From: Pseudomonadota bacterium
Lineage (GTDB): Bacteria > Pseudomonadota > Gammaproteobacteria > Burkholderiales > Ferrovaceae
Assembly: GCA_021796835.1 (NCBI GenBank)
Contig: JAKABO010000002.1
Coordinates: 60,659-124,658 of the forward strand
Length of the DNA: 64,000 nt
Reading direction: 5' to 3'
Under the pieces are notes generated by a model. The model searched no databases and was not told the origin of the DNA. It saw nothing but the letters and a program-made list of their open reading frames with translations. The translations under genes were made by a program, and so were the position numbers. Positions 3,284 to 9,099 of this stretch are shown here, piece by piece (within the stretch, counting starts at the first letter, position 1; every line of letters starts with the position of its first letter).

Positions 3284-3868
3284 TCAGGGTGTGATCAGGC
3301 CCAGGCTGGCTGCCCGGATCGCGGCTTCGATGCGGGTGGCGACCCCCAGTTTGGTGCGGGCGTTATCGATGTGAAAATCCACCGTTCTTTTGGACAGTCC
3401 CAGAATCAAGGCAATTTCACTCGAGGTCTTGCCGCGCGCCGACCAGGTCAGGACTTCCCGTTCCCTTTCTGCCAATTCCACGCCATTTCCGGCGGGCAGG
3501 AGTTCCCGCATCCGGCCCAAACGTGCGCGTAGAATTTCGTACAGTACGTCAAAGTCGATGGGTTTGGTGACATAGTCGTCCGCACCCAGTCGTCGTCCGT
3601 GCAATTCGCTTTCACGGTCGGTGAGGGCGGTCAGAAAAATGAACGGGGGGGGATTGGGCAGGGTGGCCAGGACTTTCTCCAGAACCTCGAATCCAGAAAG
3701 CGTGGGTAAGCCGATATCGCACAGCACCAGGTCCGGGCGCTCACGCTCGATGGCCTCGAGGCCGGCCTGACCGTCGTGGGTTAACTGGATGGATACGCCC
3801 CGGTCCTGTAACTCCTCCGCGATCAAATCGGCCATTTCATGGTCATCTTCGATACAAAGAACTTTCAT
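3284..3868 (-). CDS. Response regulator, REC domain + LuxR/FixJ-type HTH
   Basis: 194 aa; MKVLCIEDDHEMADLI…DLVLCDIGLPTLSGFEVL…TKP, then C-terminal LAEREREVLTWSARGKTSSEIALILGLSKRTVDFHI…KLG HTH. Confidence 0.9.
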   Translation of the reverse strand: MKVLCIEDDHEMADLIAEELQDRGVSIQLTHDGQAGLEAIERERPDLVLCDIGLPTLSGFEVLEKVLATLPNPPPFIFLTALTDRESELHGRRLGADDYVTKPIDFDVLYEILRARLGRMRELLPAGNGVELAEREREVLTWSARGKTSSEIALILGLSKRTVDFHIDNARTKLGVATRIEAAIRAASLGLITP

Positions 3869-3964
3869 CGACGTCCCGAAGTTGGCAAGAAAAGGGGAGA
3901 AACCACTTTCCTGGGTGGAAGGCGTACTTTATCAGGATTCTCACCGGGTTATCGATGCAAGTGT

Positions 3965-4855
3965 TCAATTATGGGATGCCGGGTCGTTTCCCAACACGTG
4001 ACCGTCGACCAGATGTCCGTAGAGAGAATTCCGGGAGCGATGAAACAGGGCGCGTGTTTCATCCACAGAACCGGTGAACCGCGGATCCTGGGGGCGATCG
4101 TGTCCATCCATGAAATAGGCCACATCCCAGGCTTCCTGATCGGAGAGCGATCCTCCCAGACTCAGGGGCATATTGGTCTTGATATAGGCTGCGGCCTTGT
4201 TCAGGTGGGCCATCCCGGCTCCCCAGTTGAAAGAACGGCTCCCCCACAGGGGCGGGAAGACCACGTGCCCGTCACCGGCCCGTCTCCCCTGGCCATCGAC
4301 CCCGTGACAGAGTGCACAATGATTCGCGTAAACGGTTTTTCCTCGTTCGTAACTGGGCGGAGTGCCGGGGGCCTGAATTTGCGGGATCCCCCGTTCCGGC
4401 AAGCGGGGGTTGATTTTTGCGTTTTTCTCCATCCAGTAGGCATACGACTCCAAAGCCACCAATATGGGGTCGCCCAAAGGAGGGGCTTTACCATTCATGC
4501 TGTAGAGAAAGCAATCCTGCAGACGTTCTGCGAAGGTATTGACCCGGTGGTTTTTGGATCGATAAGCGGGGTAGGACAGAAATGCTGCCCATAAGGGTGC
4601 CGATCCCGCCTTGCGGCCCTGGTCCAGATGACAATTGCGGCAACTCAAATCATTGCCTACATAGGCGCGTGCGTATTGACCGGTATTGGAAAAAATCAGT
4701 TGACCCTGGCGCACCATTTTTCCAAATTCATCCTTGGGAATATCACGATCCGCGGGCAAGAGGGAGGCTCCTCCCTCGGGAGGAGAGTCGGGCAGGCCGT
4801 CTCCCAGGGTCGTGAGGCTGGTCATCAACAGGGCAAGGGTCATCAGGTACTTCAC
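3965..4855 (-). CDS. tsdA: Diheme cytochrome c, thiosulfate dehydrogenase TsdA-like
   Basis: Two CXXCH motifs (CRNCH, CALCH); GNDLSCRNCHLDQGR…FAERLQDCFLYSMNGK TsdA-like block; GTG start at 4855 overlaps the upstream stop (GTGA) with AGGAGG SD. Confidence 0.72.
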   Translation of the reverse strand: MKYLMTLALLMTSLTTLGDGLPDSPPEGGASLLPADRDIPKDEFGKMVRQGQLIFSNTGQYARAYVGNDLSCRNCHLDQGRKAGSAPLWAAFLSYPAYRSKNHRVNTFAERLQDCFLYSMNGKAPPLGDPILVALESYAYWMEKNAKINPRLPERGIPQIQAPGTPPSYERGKTVYANHCALCHGVDGQGRRAGDGHVVFPPLWGSRSFNWGAGMAHLNKAAAYIKTNMPLSLGGSLSDQEAWDVAYFMDGHDRPQDPRFTGSVDETRALFHRSRNSLYGHLVDGHVLGNDPASHN

Positions 4856-5526
4856 GGTTGACCTCCTGGGGTCACGGCGGATGAGCCGGAATAGTAGAGC
4901 GAGACAGCGCGAATATCCTGGGCAGACAGTTTTCTGGAAATGTTTTCCATCAAGCGGAGGGGGCCCGGAGGGCGGCTGCCATTTTGAAATGCCCGCAACT
5001 GGTTTTCCAGATAGAGGGCCGGTTGCCCGTTCAAGGCCGGAAAGTTTTCGCCCACGCCTTTTCCATCGGGGCCATGACAATCATCACAGGAGGGAACGTT
5101 CTCGCTCCACCGGCCGTGAACGGCCAGCTCATGACCGGATTCGTCCCCGGCCCCCAGGGGGCGAGACCGGGGGGGTAACTGTGCGTAATAGTTGGCCGCA
5201 TGGGTGATGCCATCCGCCGTGAGCGCTTGGGCGATCGAGTTCATGATGGGGTTTTTCCGTTCGCCGGAGGCAAAGGCATGCAGTTGTTTCTCCAGATAGG
5301 TGGAAGGAAGCCCTCTCAAACCGGGTATTCCCCCTGCGGCATTCCCCTCGCCTTCGCTTCCGTGACAACCGGCACAGGCGGCACGGCTGAATCCGCTGCC
5401 CTCCCCGACGCCGAGGATCAGGGCATGGGGGGGAGAGGTTTCGGCGTGTGCGCCAAAGGCCAGGGGTAGAAACAGAAGGGCCTTGAGGAACACTTTTCCA
5501 CGCGCACGGTACTTTGTCCTGTTCAT
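4852..5526 (-). CDS. tsdB: Diheme cytochrome c (cyt c4/c553-like, TsdB-like electron acceptor)
   Basis: 224 aa; signal peptide plus two CXXCH (CAGCHG, CDDCHG); translationally coupled to the TsdA-like gene. Confidence 0.65.
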   Translation of the reverse strand: MNRTKYRARGKVFLKALLFLPLAFGAHAETSPPHALILGVGEGSGFSRAACAGCHGSEGEGNAAGGIPGLRGLPSTYLEKQLHAFASGERKNPIMNSIAQALTADGITHAANYYAQLPPRSRPLGAGDESGHELAVHGRWSENVPSCDDCHGPDGKGVGENFPALNGQPALYLENQLRAFQNGSRPPGPLRLMENISRKLSAQDIRAVSLYYSGSSAVTPGGQP

Positions 5527-5538
5527 GTCACGACCTCT

Positions 5539-6525
5539 TCATCGACGGACTGACGGTTCATCCGTAGATTGCGGATAAGGTTTGAAACCATAATGTGCAA
5601 AAATGGCCTGGGCCCTGGCCGACTTCAGGAAGTCGACCCAGGCTTGAGCCGCCTGGGGATGGGGTGCCCCTTTGACCACTCCTGCCGCGTAAACGGCAGT
5701 GGCATTCTGGGGGTCGGGAATCTCCACATGGGTGATCGGGTTCCCGGTTTCCTCCTGAAAAATTGCTTCGGATTGCCAGGTAACTCCGGCATCTGCAAGG
5801 CCCTTCATCAAGGTCATCGGGCTTTGTCGATGATGGATGTGGGTCAGTCGGGTTTCTCCCGTACGGACCTTACGGACATAAACCTCCTGAACCAGTTCAG
5901 GGCCTCCTGCCTTCATCAAGGCGGCCTTGATCTGCCGTCCAATCCCTTCGAATTCCGGATTGGGCATGACCAGTTTTACGCCGGGCTTGCCCAGATCGAC
6001 CAGCGTCCGGATGTGTGCGGGATTATTTTTCGGGACCATGATGGTCAGTTGATTGGTGGCGTAGGACACGATGGGGCCTTGTAATGACCCCTCACTGTCC
6101 ATGGCGCTGACCCGTTTCAATCCTGCGGCGTAGACGTCTGCCTTGACGGTCCAGGTCATGTTGCCTACCGTGATGGTACCGCCCTGGTGAATTTGATCGA
6201 ACAGCAGTCCCGGCGGGATGGTTTCGTAATAAATTTTTCCTTTCAGCGCAGGGTGTTCCTCCTCAAAGGCGGCTACCAGGGGGGCCATGGCAAAGAAGTA
6301 GTTGCCGCCCACAAAAATCGACAACTGAGCGCCCATGGGGTCCCCATGAAAATCCGGCAGATTGTCCACTTCGGGGACAGTGAATTCCAGTCCGCGTTGG
6401 ACGACGGGGTCGTTTCTTCCTTCGCTCCAGGGTGGGTTCACGCCGGCCTGGGTGTTCAGGGAGATACCGCCCAGCAGGGTCAGTAACATCGTCTTGATAA
6501 AGAAAGAAGTTCTGTCTATTTTCAT
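5539..6525 (-). CDS. Periplasmic substrate-binding protein, ModA-like (no permease nearby)
   Basis: Signal peptide MKIDRTSFFIKTMLLTLLGGISLNTQA; type-II PBP-like features (LSIFVGGNYFFAMAPLVAAFEEEHP, TNQLTIMVPKNNP, AAGVVKGAPHPQAAQAWVDFLKS); start chosen at ATG 6525 after an SD. Confidence 0.7.
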   Translation of the reverse strand: MKIDRTSFFIKTMLLTLLGGISLNTQAGVNPPWSEGRNDPVVQRGLEFTVPEVDNLPDFHGDPMGAQLSIFVGGNYFFAMAPLVAAFEEEHPALKGKIYYETIPPGLLFDQIHQGGTITVGNMTWTVKADVYAAGLKRVSAMDSEGSLQGPIVSYATNQLTIMVPKNNPAHIRTLVDLGKPGVKLVMPNPEFEGIGRQIKAALMKAGGPELVQEVYVRKVRTGETRLTHIHHRQSPMTLMKGLADAGVTWQSEAIFQEETGNPITHVEIPDPQNATAVYAAGVVKGAPHPQAAQAWVDFLKSARAQAIFAHYGFKPYPQSTDEPSVRR

Positions 6526-6535
6526 GAGTGTTCTC

Positions 6536-7327
6536 CTATTTGGCGTAATAAAATCCCCGTGCACCCAATTCGGGCATCGTTCCCATCACGCCGGGGGTCA
6601 ATACCGCCCCATCGATGAGGTGATTGGTGAGTTCGGCAGCCAATTGGGGGATGGATCGATGGTCTGGATTCACATCCGACTTGTGCAGGCGGGTAGCCAA
6701 CTCGAAGATGGCGTTGTGGCAGGCCAGAAAAACAACGCCACGGGACTGCAGTACGGGAATACTGTTATCCAGGGGGGAGAATGCGCCGGTGATGTCCTCA
6801 TATTGGGCGGGGTCCGTCTGGGCTGCAGCAGAGACCTTCAGGAAACTGTTGTCCTTGAATTTCCCCTGGGTCAGTTGGGACAATTGATACTTTTCCCACA
6901 GGTAATCATCGTAAAGCGCCAAATGGGCGGGTCCATGGGTGCCCGAGACCACCAGAAAATCCTTGTGTCCGAAAGCCCAAATCTGGGTATTCAGGGTATT
7001 TCTCATCAGATTGAGCCATGGGCCGTCCAGGACTACGTTGTCGAAAACCTGCTTATGCTGTCCCTGATACTGGAAAACCAGGCGCAAGGCCTCCTCATCC
7101 CATTCGTCGGGGTGGGTCAAAATCATGGGAACGCTCTTGAAGTCCCGACGTCGGGGCGTTTTTTCCAGGGATTGGTTCAAAAGGGATAACGTTGAGGTCC
7201 CTTCGGGAATCAAGGTCCTCAAGGAGGATTGGGCCGATTCGGCGTGCGCAATCGATCCGCCGCCCAGCGTCAGGGTTGCCAGACCGCTGGTCATGAAGCC
7301 CAACATTCCTCTGCGTGCATTGTTCAT
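6536..7327 (-). CDS. Tat-signal-like exported protein with DsrE-like C-terminal region
   Basis: MNNARRGMLGFMTSGLATLTLGGGSIAHA signal; C-terminal GVVFLACHNAIFELA…DGAVLTPGVMGTMPELGARGFYYAK resembles the DsrE-family fold pattern; single Cys in the protein. Confidence 0.55.
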   Translation of the reverse strand: MNNARRGMLGFMTSGLATLTLGGGSIAHAESAQSSLRTLIPEGTSTLSLLNQSLEKTPRRRDFKSVPMILTHPDEWDEEALRLVFQYQGQHKQVFDNVVLDGPWLNLMRNTLNTQIWAFGHKDFLVVSGTHGPAHLALYDDYLWEKYQLSQLTQGKFKDNSFLKVSAAAQTDPAQYEDITGAFSPLDNSIPVLQSRGVVFLACHNAIFELATRLHKSDVNPDHRSIPQLAAELTNHLIDGAVLTPGVMGTMPELGARGFYYAK

Positions 7328-7578
7328 GGTATGTGCTCCGAATAAAATTTGTTGTGGGAGATGCAGCCCCCTGAAAGGGGCTTAATATCATATCGTTCTA
7401 TCCTTAGAATTAGTGGTTGTATTATAAGTACTGGTTCAAAGATAAGTAAAATTCATTTTTATCATTAAACAATGAATATTATTCATCTGTTGGCCGGAGA
7501 GGACTGGATGTTTTCTTTGTTTGTGTAAAATTTGTTGAAATTCAATTGGTTTTAAGTATTTTTCGAATACAATAGACC

Positions 7579-9099
7579 ATGCGTTTCCACTCCCTGCGCA
7601 CACGCCTGTCCTTGGCCTATGCCCTTTTCCTTTTGCTGGTCGTGGGGTTGGGGGCGTTCAGCATCCGTCAGTTGGATGACTATAACCGGGTGACGGCAGA
7701 GATCCGTGACCGCTGGTTGCAATCTACGCGCATTCTGGGCGATCTCAATAACGATACCTCGGATTTTCGTTCGGCCGAGGGCAGTTTCCTGCTGGCGGAT
7801 ACGCCGTTGGAACGTCAGGACAGTGCACGCGAAATGGACGCTCTGGATGCTTCCATTGCCCATAGTCTGGTGCGATACCAGCGCATCCGCCACGACGACC
7901 AGGAAGATCGGCTGTATCAGGATTTTCTCGTCCATTGGCGCAGTTATCGTCGGCTGGTGAGGCAGGAACAGGCGTTGCCGCCTGAGAATGGCACAGCGAT
8001 CCGTCTATATCGCACCGATGCGCGCACCGCTTACGACCGGGCCAGTGAAACACTGGGACAGTTGACCCAGTGGAATCTGGTGGGGGCCAAAAATGCCGTA
8101 GAGCGGGAGAGTGCCACTTACCGGGATGCCAATGGCTGGATCGTGGCAGCCATTTTGACGGCGGGATTGCTGCTTTTTACGGCCATTGGTTTCATTACAC
8201 GCTCTGTTTCCAACCCGTTGCTCGATTTGGCGAGGAGCATGCAACGGATCGTGGACAAGGAAGCCGAGGTTCCCATCCAGGGGGTTGAACGGAGTGATGA
8301 AATTGGCGTCATGGCCCGTTCGGTACGGGTCTTCCAGGACAATGCCCGAGCGCTGTTGACCAGTCAGGCCCGCCTGGCGGAACAGGCGAAGAGCCTTGAA
8401 GATGCCCTGGCCAAAGCGCAGGAAATGACTCAGCAACAACATAATTTCGTTCTGATGACCTCCCATGAATTTCGTACGCCCCTGGCCCTGATCGACGGGT
8501 ATGCCCAGCGTCTGTATAACGCCCGCGGGCGTTTTGGGCCGGACGAGGTGGGGGAGCGTGCACTCAAGATCCGGCGTGCCACCCAGCGCCTGACCACGCT
8601 GCTCGACAATTTGCTGGACATCCCCAAACATTCCACCGAAACACAACCCTTCCATCCGCAACCACTGGAGGTCGGCGAATTGCTTCGTCGTTTGTGCCAG
8701 GAATACCGCGAGATGGCTCCCGATCGACATTTTCAGGAAGATCTGGAGAATTTCAGTTTGTTCATCACAGGGGATGCGGAGTTGCTTCACCAGGCATTCG
8801 GCAATCTATTGTCCAATGCCGTCAAATATTCGGCGCCGGGCAGTTCCATCACGCTCGGGGCACAGGACTGCGATGGTACCCTGGTGATTGAGATATCGGA
8901 TCAGGGCATCGGCATTCCCGAGCGGGATCGGCCCCATATTTTCGAGCGATATTACCGTGGCTCCAACGTCGGGTCGCACAGTGGGACGGGCGTGGGGCTC
9001 ACCCTCGTGAACCAGATCATTGCTCTGCACCACGGGACATTGGAAGTTGTCAGTACGGAGGGAGTGGGGAGCCGGTTTACCGTCCGCCTTCCCTATTGA
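7579..9099 (+). CDS. Membrane sensor histidine kinase (periplasmic helical sensor, HAMP, HisKA, HATPase_c)
   Basis: 506 aa; two TM segments flanking a helical ~170 aa region, HAMP-like linker, MTSHEFRTPLALIDGY H-box, NLLSNAVKYS N-box, DQGIGIPE, GTGVGLTLV. Confidence 0.9.
   Translation: MRFHSLRTRLSLAYALFLLLVVGLGAFSIRQLDDYNRVTAEIRDRWLQSTRILGDLNNDTSDFRSAEGSFLLADTPLERQDSAREMDALDASIAHSLVRYQRIRHDDQEDRLYQDFLVHWRSYRRLVRQEQALPPENGTAIRLYRTDARTAYDRASETLGQLTQWNLVGAKNAVERESATYRDANGWIVAAILTAGLLLFTAIGFITRSVSNPLLDLARSMQRIVDKEAEVPIQGVERSDEIGVMARSVRVFQDNARALLTSQARLAEQAKSLEDALAKAQEMTQQQHNFVLMTSHEFRTPLALIDGYAQRLYNARGRFGPDEVGERALKIRRATQRLTTLLDNLLDIPKHSTETQPFHPQPLEVGELLRRLCQEYREMAPDRHFQEDLENFSLFITGDAELLHQAFGNLLSNAVKYSAPGSSITLGAQDCDGTLVIEISDQGIGIPERDRPHIFERYYRGSNVGSHSGTGVGLTLVNQIIALHHGTLEVVSTEGVGSRFTVRLPY

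Follow-up and report, generated by a model that had tools for sequence, protein, structure and literature searches.

Two kinds of thiosulfate-oxidising system stand closest to the locus that we describe here. In Acidithiobacillus, clusters of the order tsd-sbp-doxDA-rhd have been drawn, and their thiosulfate dehydrogenase (TSD), AFE_0042, has been shown biochemically to be such an enzyme, with a pH optimum of 2.5 and without reducing either ubiquinone or horse cytochrome c (PMC6335251). In A. ferrooxidans AFE_0042, AFE_0043 and AFE_0044 are each expressed more strongly with sulfur than with Fe(II) (PMC2754497). The second system is TsdBA, found in Thiomonas, Marichromatium (PDB 5lo9) and Halomonas. 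Both are already known. The locus of interest lies in a 64,000-nucleotide stretch (the window, to which all positions refer) of the 2.15-Mb genome of a member of the genus Ferrovum (GCA_021796835.1, contig JAKABO010000002.1), where an operon, tsd-sbp-tsdB-tsdA, is situated between the genes of a histidine kinase (HK) and a response regulator (RR). Our preferred explanation, which we hold to be probable, is that this is an operon for the periplasmic oxidation of thiosulfate to tetrathionate that was inserted in an older two-component locus, the solute-binding protein (SBP) capturing thiosulfate for TSD, and electrons passing to TsdBA or, in other species, to DoxDA.

The A. ferrooxidans cluster (AFE_0042-0050) resembles this locus in that a gene of the DsrE-fold TSD family is followed by that of an orphan SBP; it too belongs to an acidophile, and its genes are induced by sulfur. 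It differs in having the membrane protein DoxDA where Ferrovum has TsdBA, in being present as two copies with rhodanese genes, and in having no flanking HK/RR reported. With the TsdBA systems the locus shares the position of tsdB directly upstream of tsdA and the haem and ligand motifs, but here TsdBA shares an operon with TSD and SBP. From position 7327 downward on the minus strand the order is tsd, sbp, tsdB, tsdA, a 96-bp gap and RR. HK runs in the opposite direction, and the start codons of the divergent tsd and HK genes are 251 bp apart. An earlier reading, made from the letters of the DNA alone (the sequence-only reading), had given this gene order and a shared divergent promoter region of about 250 bp, and both hold: the six genes are intact where it had placed them, and synteny of the entire cluster is kept in five Ferrovum genomes. 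Ferrovum myxofaciens P3G has the identical arrangement, with a TSD 89% identical to that of the window, and comparison with P3G indicates purifying selection on every gene of the cluster (dN/dS 0.08-0.22). The arrangement is genuine, being neither chance nor artefact.

The product of tsd (6536..7327, minus strand), which would be exported by the twin-arginine translocation (Tat) pathway, matches the NCBIfam thiosulfate dehydrogenase family NF052225 (1.4e-107) with 358.9 bits over residues 5-263 of 263, the equivalog cut-off being 300 bits. No family was matched in a Pfam search, and the sole match in a sequence search of the PDB was a chance match to a deacetylase. The fold was instead assessed from an AlphaFold model (pLDDT 94), whose top PDB neighbours are of the DsrE family (MTH1491, Swol_2425 DsrE and SSO DsrE/F). 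These matches are weak (E 0.006-0.12, the best being 0.006; probability 1.0-0.6), yet because DsrE-family structures are the nearest neighbours we consider that the sequence-only reading was right to call this a Tat-exported DsrE-like protein. A cysteine at the strand-helix turn, Cys203, is invariant among 41 homologues that span to Gemmatimonadota and Acidobacteriota, and small exported DsrE proteins align with TSD at this cysteine motif in a profile comparison (probability 64%). A role as a mere sulfur carrier was considered for the protein, and was dropped in favour of TSD once NF052225 matched. Since the DsrE-like protein belongs to this curated family, the locus is predicted to encode two unrelated thiosulfate dehydrogenases, TSD and TsdA. 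Size, Tat signal, sbp/doxDA neighbours and family name place the window TSD provisionally with the AFE_0042 type, for which the conversion of thiosulfate to tetrathionate at acid pH is on record for AFE_0042 alone (PMC6335251). More distantly, TSD-like proteins of the DsrE fold (∼25-31% identity, several with Tat-like signal peptides) are found in ten loci of Gemmatimonadota and Acidobacteriota (L061-L070), and in one of these, from a Gemmatimonadaceae (L069), the gene directly follows tsdA.

The second enzyme, TsdA (3965..4855, minus strand), is a dihaem cytochrome c of the thiosulfate dehydrogenase/tetrathionate reductase type, with its best PDB matches to TsdBA 5lo9 (1.8e-79) and to Allochromatium vinosum TsdA (4wqc/4v2k/4wq7, ∼1e-48). 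Aligned to 5lo9, 4wqc and 4v2k, it has both CxxCH motifs, the Cys ligand of haem 1 and the Met ligand of haem 2, and at the position of Lys208 in the A. vinosum protein it has Asn, as does 5lo9. After comparison with relatives we placed the start of tsdA at a GTG; as in those relatives, the gene then shares 4 bp with tsdB. The gene directly upstream, tsdB (4852..5526, minus strand), encodes a dihaem c4-type cytochrome, the predicted electron acceptor of TsdA, which matches the N-terminal half of 5lo9 (2.6e-30) and cytochrome c4 (2.5e-23); TsdB and TsdA thus each match one half of the TsdBA fusion known from that crystal structure. The TsdBA-like pair recognised in the sequence-only reading is thereby upheld, by the strong matches to both halves and the aligned haem-1 Cys, and with TSD above its family cut-off so is the proposal that the locus serves the oxidation of a sulfur oxyanion, in this case thiosulfate. 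It could be argued that the operon runs in reverse, with a bifunctional TsdA acting as tetrathionate reductase, given that TsdA enzymes are bifunctional and work reductively in Campylobacter (PMC5146829), and that C. jejuni also has Asn at the Lys208 position. However, MpTsdBA has the same Asn, the activity of the TSD family is oxidative at pH 2.5 (PMC6335251) and tsd-sbp is elsewhere paired with DoxDA, an oxidative enzyme; we regard reverse operation as unlikely. Two further TsdA-type genes were noticed in Ferrovum. One is a solo tsdA (L082:7314-8282, product 66% identical) on a separate contig of genome G004, between pyrE-like and phosphotransferase-type (PTS) genes and with no tsdB or tsd nearby; the other is a gap-interrupted multihaem TsdA-type cytochrome (L083:1950-3431, G005:C21) a few kb from a hydrogenase small subunit-like gene.

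Between tsdB and tsd lies sbp (5539..6525, minus strand), which encodes an exported type II SBP of the oxyanion class (PF13531, 4.9e-53). Its closest profile and sequence matches are the sulfate-binding proteins SubI (6ddn) and 1sbp. Like these and ModA it has the type II fold and the invariant equivalent of Trp192 of 1sbp, and it also keeps Gly131, with scores to the Sbp/CysP families that are far under their cut-offs. It departs from them in an invariant Glu for Ser130, in a His-His-Arg-Gln stretch at the loop position of Ala173, in a modA score (TIGR01256, 48.8 bits) under the cut-off of 62.5, and in the lack of genes for ATP-binding cassette (ABC) transport. We take Ser130, Ala173 and Trp192 of 1sbp to be sulfate ligands. 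The claim that this is a binding protein without ABC permease or ATPase agrees with our search, which found neither near the cluster. To extend it we compared 40 loci (L021-L060), each with a gene for a TSD relative; most come from metagenome-assembled genomes (MAGs), and for this reason absences from these loci are weak evidence. The sequence-only reading had said that SBP homologues occurring mainly with ABC permeases would count against it. A single ModB query found a ModB-like permease in none of the 40 loci. We therefore rejected both ModA identity, the score also being sub-threshold, and a role in ABC transport, the genome having its own genuine modA-modB on a separate contig, adjoining nif-like genes (L001, G000:C38). 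That the SBP might still be an orphan molybdate or sulfate uptake protein, using ABC permeases encoded elsewhere, is a reading to which its PF13531 fold and weak modA similarity lend something; set against the sub-threshold score, the separate modA-modB, the absence of ModB-like permeases and the tight linkage to tsd and DsrE genes, we find it highly improbable.

With what, then, does the SBP travel? In 33 of the 40 loci sbp is directly downstream of tsd on the same strand; of the seven loci that depart from this, two lie at the end of a contig. The third gene module is variable. Of the 40 loci, 16 have DoxDA in this place. The Ferrovum subclade has a TsdA-type cytochrome, as do seven further loci, namely five pentahaem fusions (including that of Candidatus Gallionella acididurans), one Hyphomicrobiales locus with tsdA upstream of tsd, and one locus of the order TsdB-TsdA-TSD-SBP. 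DoxDA is found in none of the five Ferrovum genomes that carry TsdBA, and within Ferrovum in G002 only. Mapped on the TSD tree, the third module changed about seven times (6-7 in bootstraps), at least two of these changes being forced by well-supported branches, and the TSDs of the window clade cluster with a different genus, apart from those of their congeners (97/94). The pairing of SBP with DsrE proteins extends beyond TSD itself. Among the 32 Ferrovaceae genomes that we examined, ten from three genera have the SBP and lack HK, and in seven of the ten (two genera, without NF052225) the gene of the SBP, 62-70% identical, has that of a pentahaem TsdA on one side and that of a small exported DsrE protein (PF02635) on the other; in one of the two genera a gene for a PF04143 sulfur-transport protein comes next. 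In loci L085, L086, L087 and L091 this operon, pentahaem TsdA-SBP-exported DsrE-PF04143, has a gene for a small monohaem cytochrome adjacent to it, and looks like a unit for thiosulfate oxidation plus uptake. SoxB was searched for in the nine genomes labelled g1/g2 and not found.

These distributions bear on the central proposal of the sequence-only reading, that the SBP presents an oxyanion to the kinase. In its full form, an SBP with thiosulfate or tetrathionate bound would dock on the four-helix periplasmic domain of HK, in the manner of TorT/TorS or LuxP/LuxQ, with RR controlling the cytochromes. HK (7579..9099, plus strand) has the Pfam architecture 4HB_MCP_1-HAMP-HisKA-HATPase_c, so that the helical periplasmic region described earlier proves to be a four-helix bundle (4HB), and 4HB domains of chemoreceptors bind SBPs. 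In favour of this proposal, the SBP lacks ABC partners, and HK is encoded divergently from the operon and accompanies all five SBP-TsdBA clusters of the subclade. Nevertheless, the SBP tracks DsrE-fold, TsdA and DoxDA proteins rather than the kinase: ten Ferrovaceae genomes have it without HK, and only four of the 33 adjacent tsd-sbp loci also contain this HK. The neighbourhood check thus linked the SBP to the DsrE-fold protein and failed to link it to the kinase. Conversely, HK and RR occur without an adjacent SBP in three congeners, in which the sensor domain is still 68-74% identical. Co-conservation having failed across the 32 genomes, we abandoned SBP-kinase pairing as the leading explanation and consider such docking unlikely. 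In TorT/TorS, AioX/AioS and LuxP/LuxQ, likewise, an orphan SBP is encoded close to a kinase; the Ferrovum SBP differs from these in that it does not co-occur with HK across genomes and follows the enzyme genes. Judged from these neighbourhoods, the SBP is most likely a partner of the oxidising enzyme, not of the sensor.

The same three congeners bear on the history of the two-component pair. RR (3284..3868, minus strand) combines a receiver (Pfam Response_reg, 8.7e-24) with a DNA-binding domain of the LuxR/FixJ type (GerE, 1.1e-16). Orthologues of HK are present in 8/8 Ferrovum genomes and 0/24 other Ferrovaceae, and the HK/RR pair is confined to Ferrovum. In G002, G004 and G007 the HisKA-HATPase kinase and its cognate receiver regulator are direct neighbours beside purC, at the same chromosomal site and with no cassette between them, as expected of the partnership suggested for them previously. 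Because the two genes adjoin at the same site in these genomes, we conclude that the tsd-sbp-tsdB-tsdA operon most likely entered the gap between resident divergent HK and RR genes in one Ferrovum subclade. The periplasmic domain of HK is as well kept in the cassette-free loci as are the catalytic parts (HATPase 52-54%, HisKA 63-80%), which suggests that the input of HK dates from before the cassette. Co-occurrence of the two-component system with the cytochromes is limited to the one subclade. G002 and G004 carry tsd-sbp at other sites, with DoxDA or adjoining a block of ArsR and resistance-nodulation-division (RND) pump genes; the G007 assembly is 73% complete, which may explain why neither tsd nor sbp is present in it. 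In L016 and L020, too, tsd-sbp is followed by the ArsR/RND block, and in a Ferrovum MAG (L014:10193-10579 and 6585-6923) a rhodanese gene lies upstream, and an ArsR regulator and RND pump downstream, of tsd-sbp-doxDA.

The promoter region bears on a possible control of the inserted operon by HK/RR. A putative sigma-70 promoter of the operon, TTTACT-18-TATAAT (7421..7450, minus strand), matches the consensus at 10/12 positions, with TATAAT invariant across five genomes. Overlapping its -35 box is a conserved AT-rich inverted element (7442..7487, minus strand; ATTCAT-15-ATGAATTTTACTTAT in the window), in which AAAATGAATTTTACTTAT is invariant across the same five genomes. Its position over -35 fits an activator site, without naming the activator. 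Among the genomes searched the core ATGAATTTTACTTAT has an exact match only at the tsd promoter, and for this reason a regulon cannot be defined; inspection by eye of the short gap between HK and RR in G004 and G007 revealed no counterpart of the element. Control of the cassette by HK/RR is possible. The alternative is that HK/RR serves an old, non-sulfur target and that the cassette is merely located inside, with a constitutive promoter of its own or another regulator. Consistent with this, G002, G004 and G007 have the pair at this place but no cassette there, nine other tsd loci have a divergent LysR gene at the place of the Ferrovum HK, and any RR site at the tsd promoter is putative. The position of the cassette between both genes, the shared divergent promoter region kept in five genomes and its invariant -35 element nevertheless make us doubt it somewhat, and an operon inserted there could readily become co-regulated. 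Two-component systems beside thiosulfate or tetrathionate genes are known in RsrS/RsrR and TspS/TspR of A. caldus, TcsS/TcsR of A. ferrooxidans and TtrS/TtrR. The Ferrovum pair differs from these in its 4HB-type HK, its LuxR/FixJ-type RR, the lack of a sigma-54 regulator and its presence before the cassette, and a sulfur response on its part is putative.

Returning to the inserted thiosulfate-oxidation operon as our preferred explanation, we observe the gene identities, the recurrence of sbp next to tsd, changes of the third module and a two-component locus free of the cassette, and from these we infer the following scheme. In the acidic periplasm the SBP would bind thiosulfate (or tetrathionate) and deliver it to the DsrE-fold TSD, whose invariant cysteine may hold a thiosulfonate intermediate; a Cys-S-thiosulfonate on a DsrE protein has precedent in DsrE3A of Metallosphaera (PMC4175335). 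In Ferrovum, electrons from TSD would reach a cytochrome c oxidase by way of TsdA/TsdB, the c4-type TsdB being a possible donor to a cbb3 oxidase (PMC9237845), whereas in other species they would pass through DoxDA to quinone. The flanking HK/RR may have been recruited as a switch for the operon, without a tie to the SBP. Several points weigh against this explanation. Thiosulfate is a putative ligand of the SBP, in which Trp192 of the sulfate-binding protein is retained but an invariant Glu stands for Ser130; TSD and TsdBA could instead act in parallel, side by side; the tsd frame is broken in L060, the TsdB-TsdA-TSD-SBP locus; the order of events, insertion and not loss, is derived from eight genomes, several of them incomplete; and P3G has been described with ferrous iron as its sole electron donor (PMC4886054).

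More tentatively, we suggest that an exported DsrE-fold protein, an orphan SBP and an interchangeable module (TsdBA, pentahaem TsdA or DoxDA) might form a general periplasmic thiosulfate-oxidising complex, with the SBP as substrate-delivery subunit and the module as electron acceptor of TSD, HK/RR having been captured for its control by the insertion of the operon. If so, the 'iron-only' F. myxofaciens would have an overlooked second electron donor. The exchange of TsdA-type cytochromes and DoxDA beside tsd-sbp names concrete candidates for the electron acceptor of TSD, and a likely role is proposed for an orphan binding protein that many sulfur oxidisers have. Thiosulfate oxidation is predicted in a genus with a type strain described as restricted to ferrous iron. 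The HK/RR locus, found both with the insert and free of it, lends itself to comparing how an incoming operon becomes wired to a two-component system that was there before. In a 2026 survey of Ferrovaceae (PMC13390463), sulfur oxidation is not among the traits listed for Ferrovum, and tsd goes unmentioned. In literature that was mostly without subscription papers, we came across no account of the variant that combines TsdBA with a two-component pair, of its occurrence in F. myxofaciens, of the pentahaem and small-DsrE variants or of the recurrent exchange of modules.

Outside the cluster, the nearest neighbours are purC-pyk-pgk-gap and the gene of an RND pump. A PADLOC search gave no match. Elsewhere in the window, positions 22610-52266 hold a large, ordinary chemotaxis and flagellar cluster (CheA, CheZ, two CheV-like proteins, MotAB, FlhB, FlhA, flagellin, FliD, FliK and FliF).

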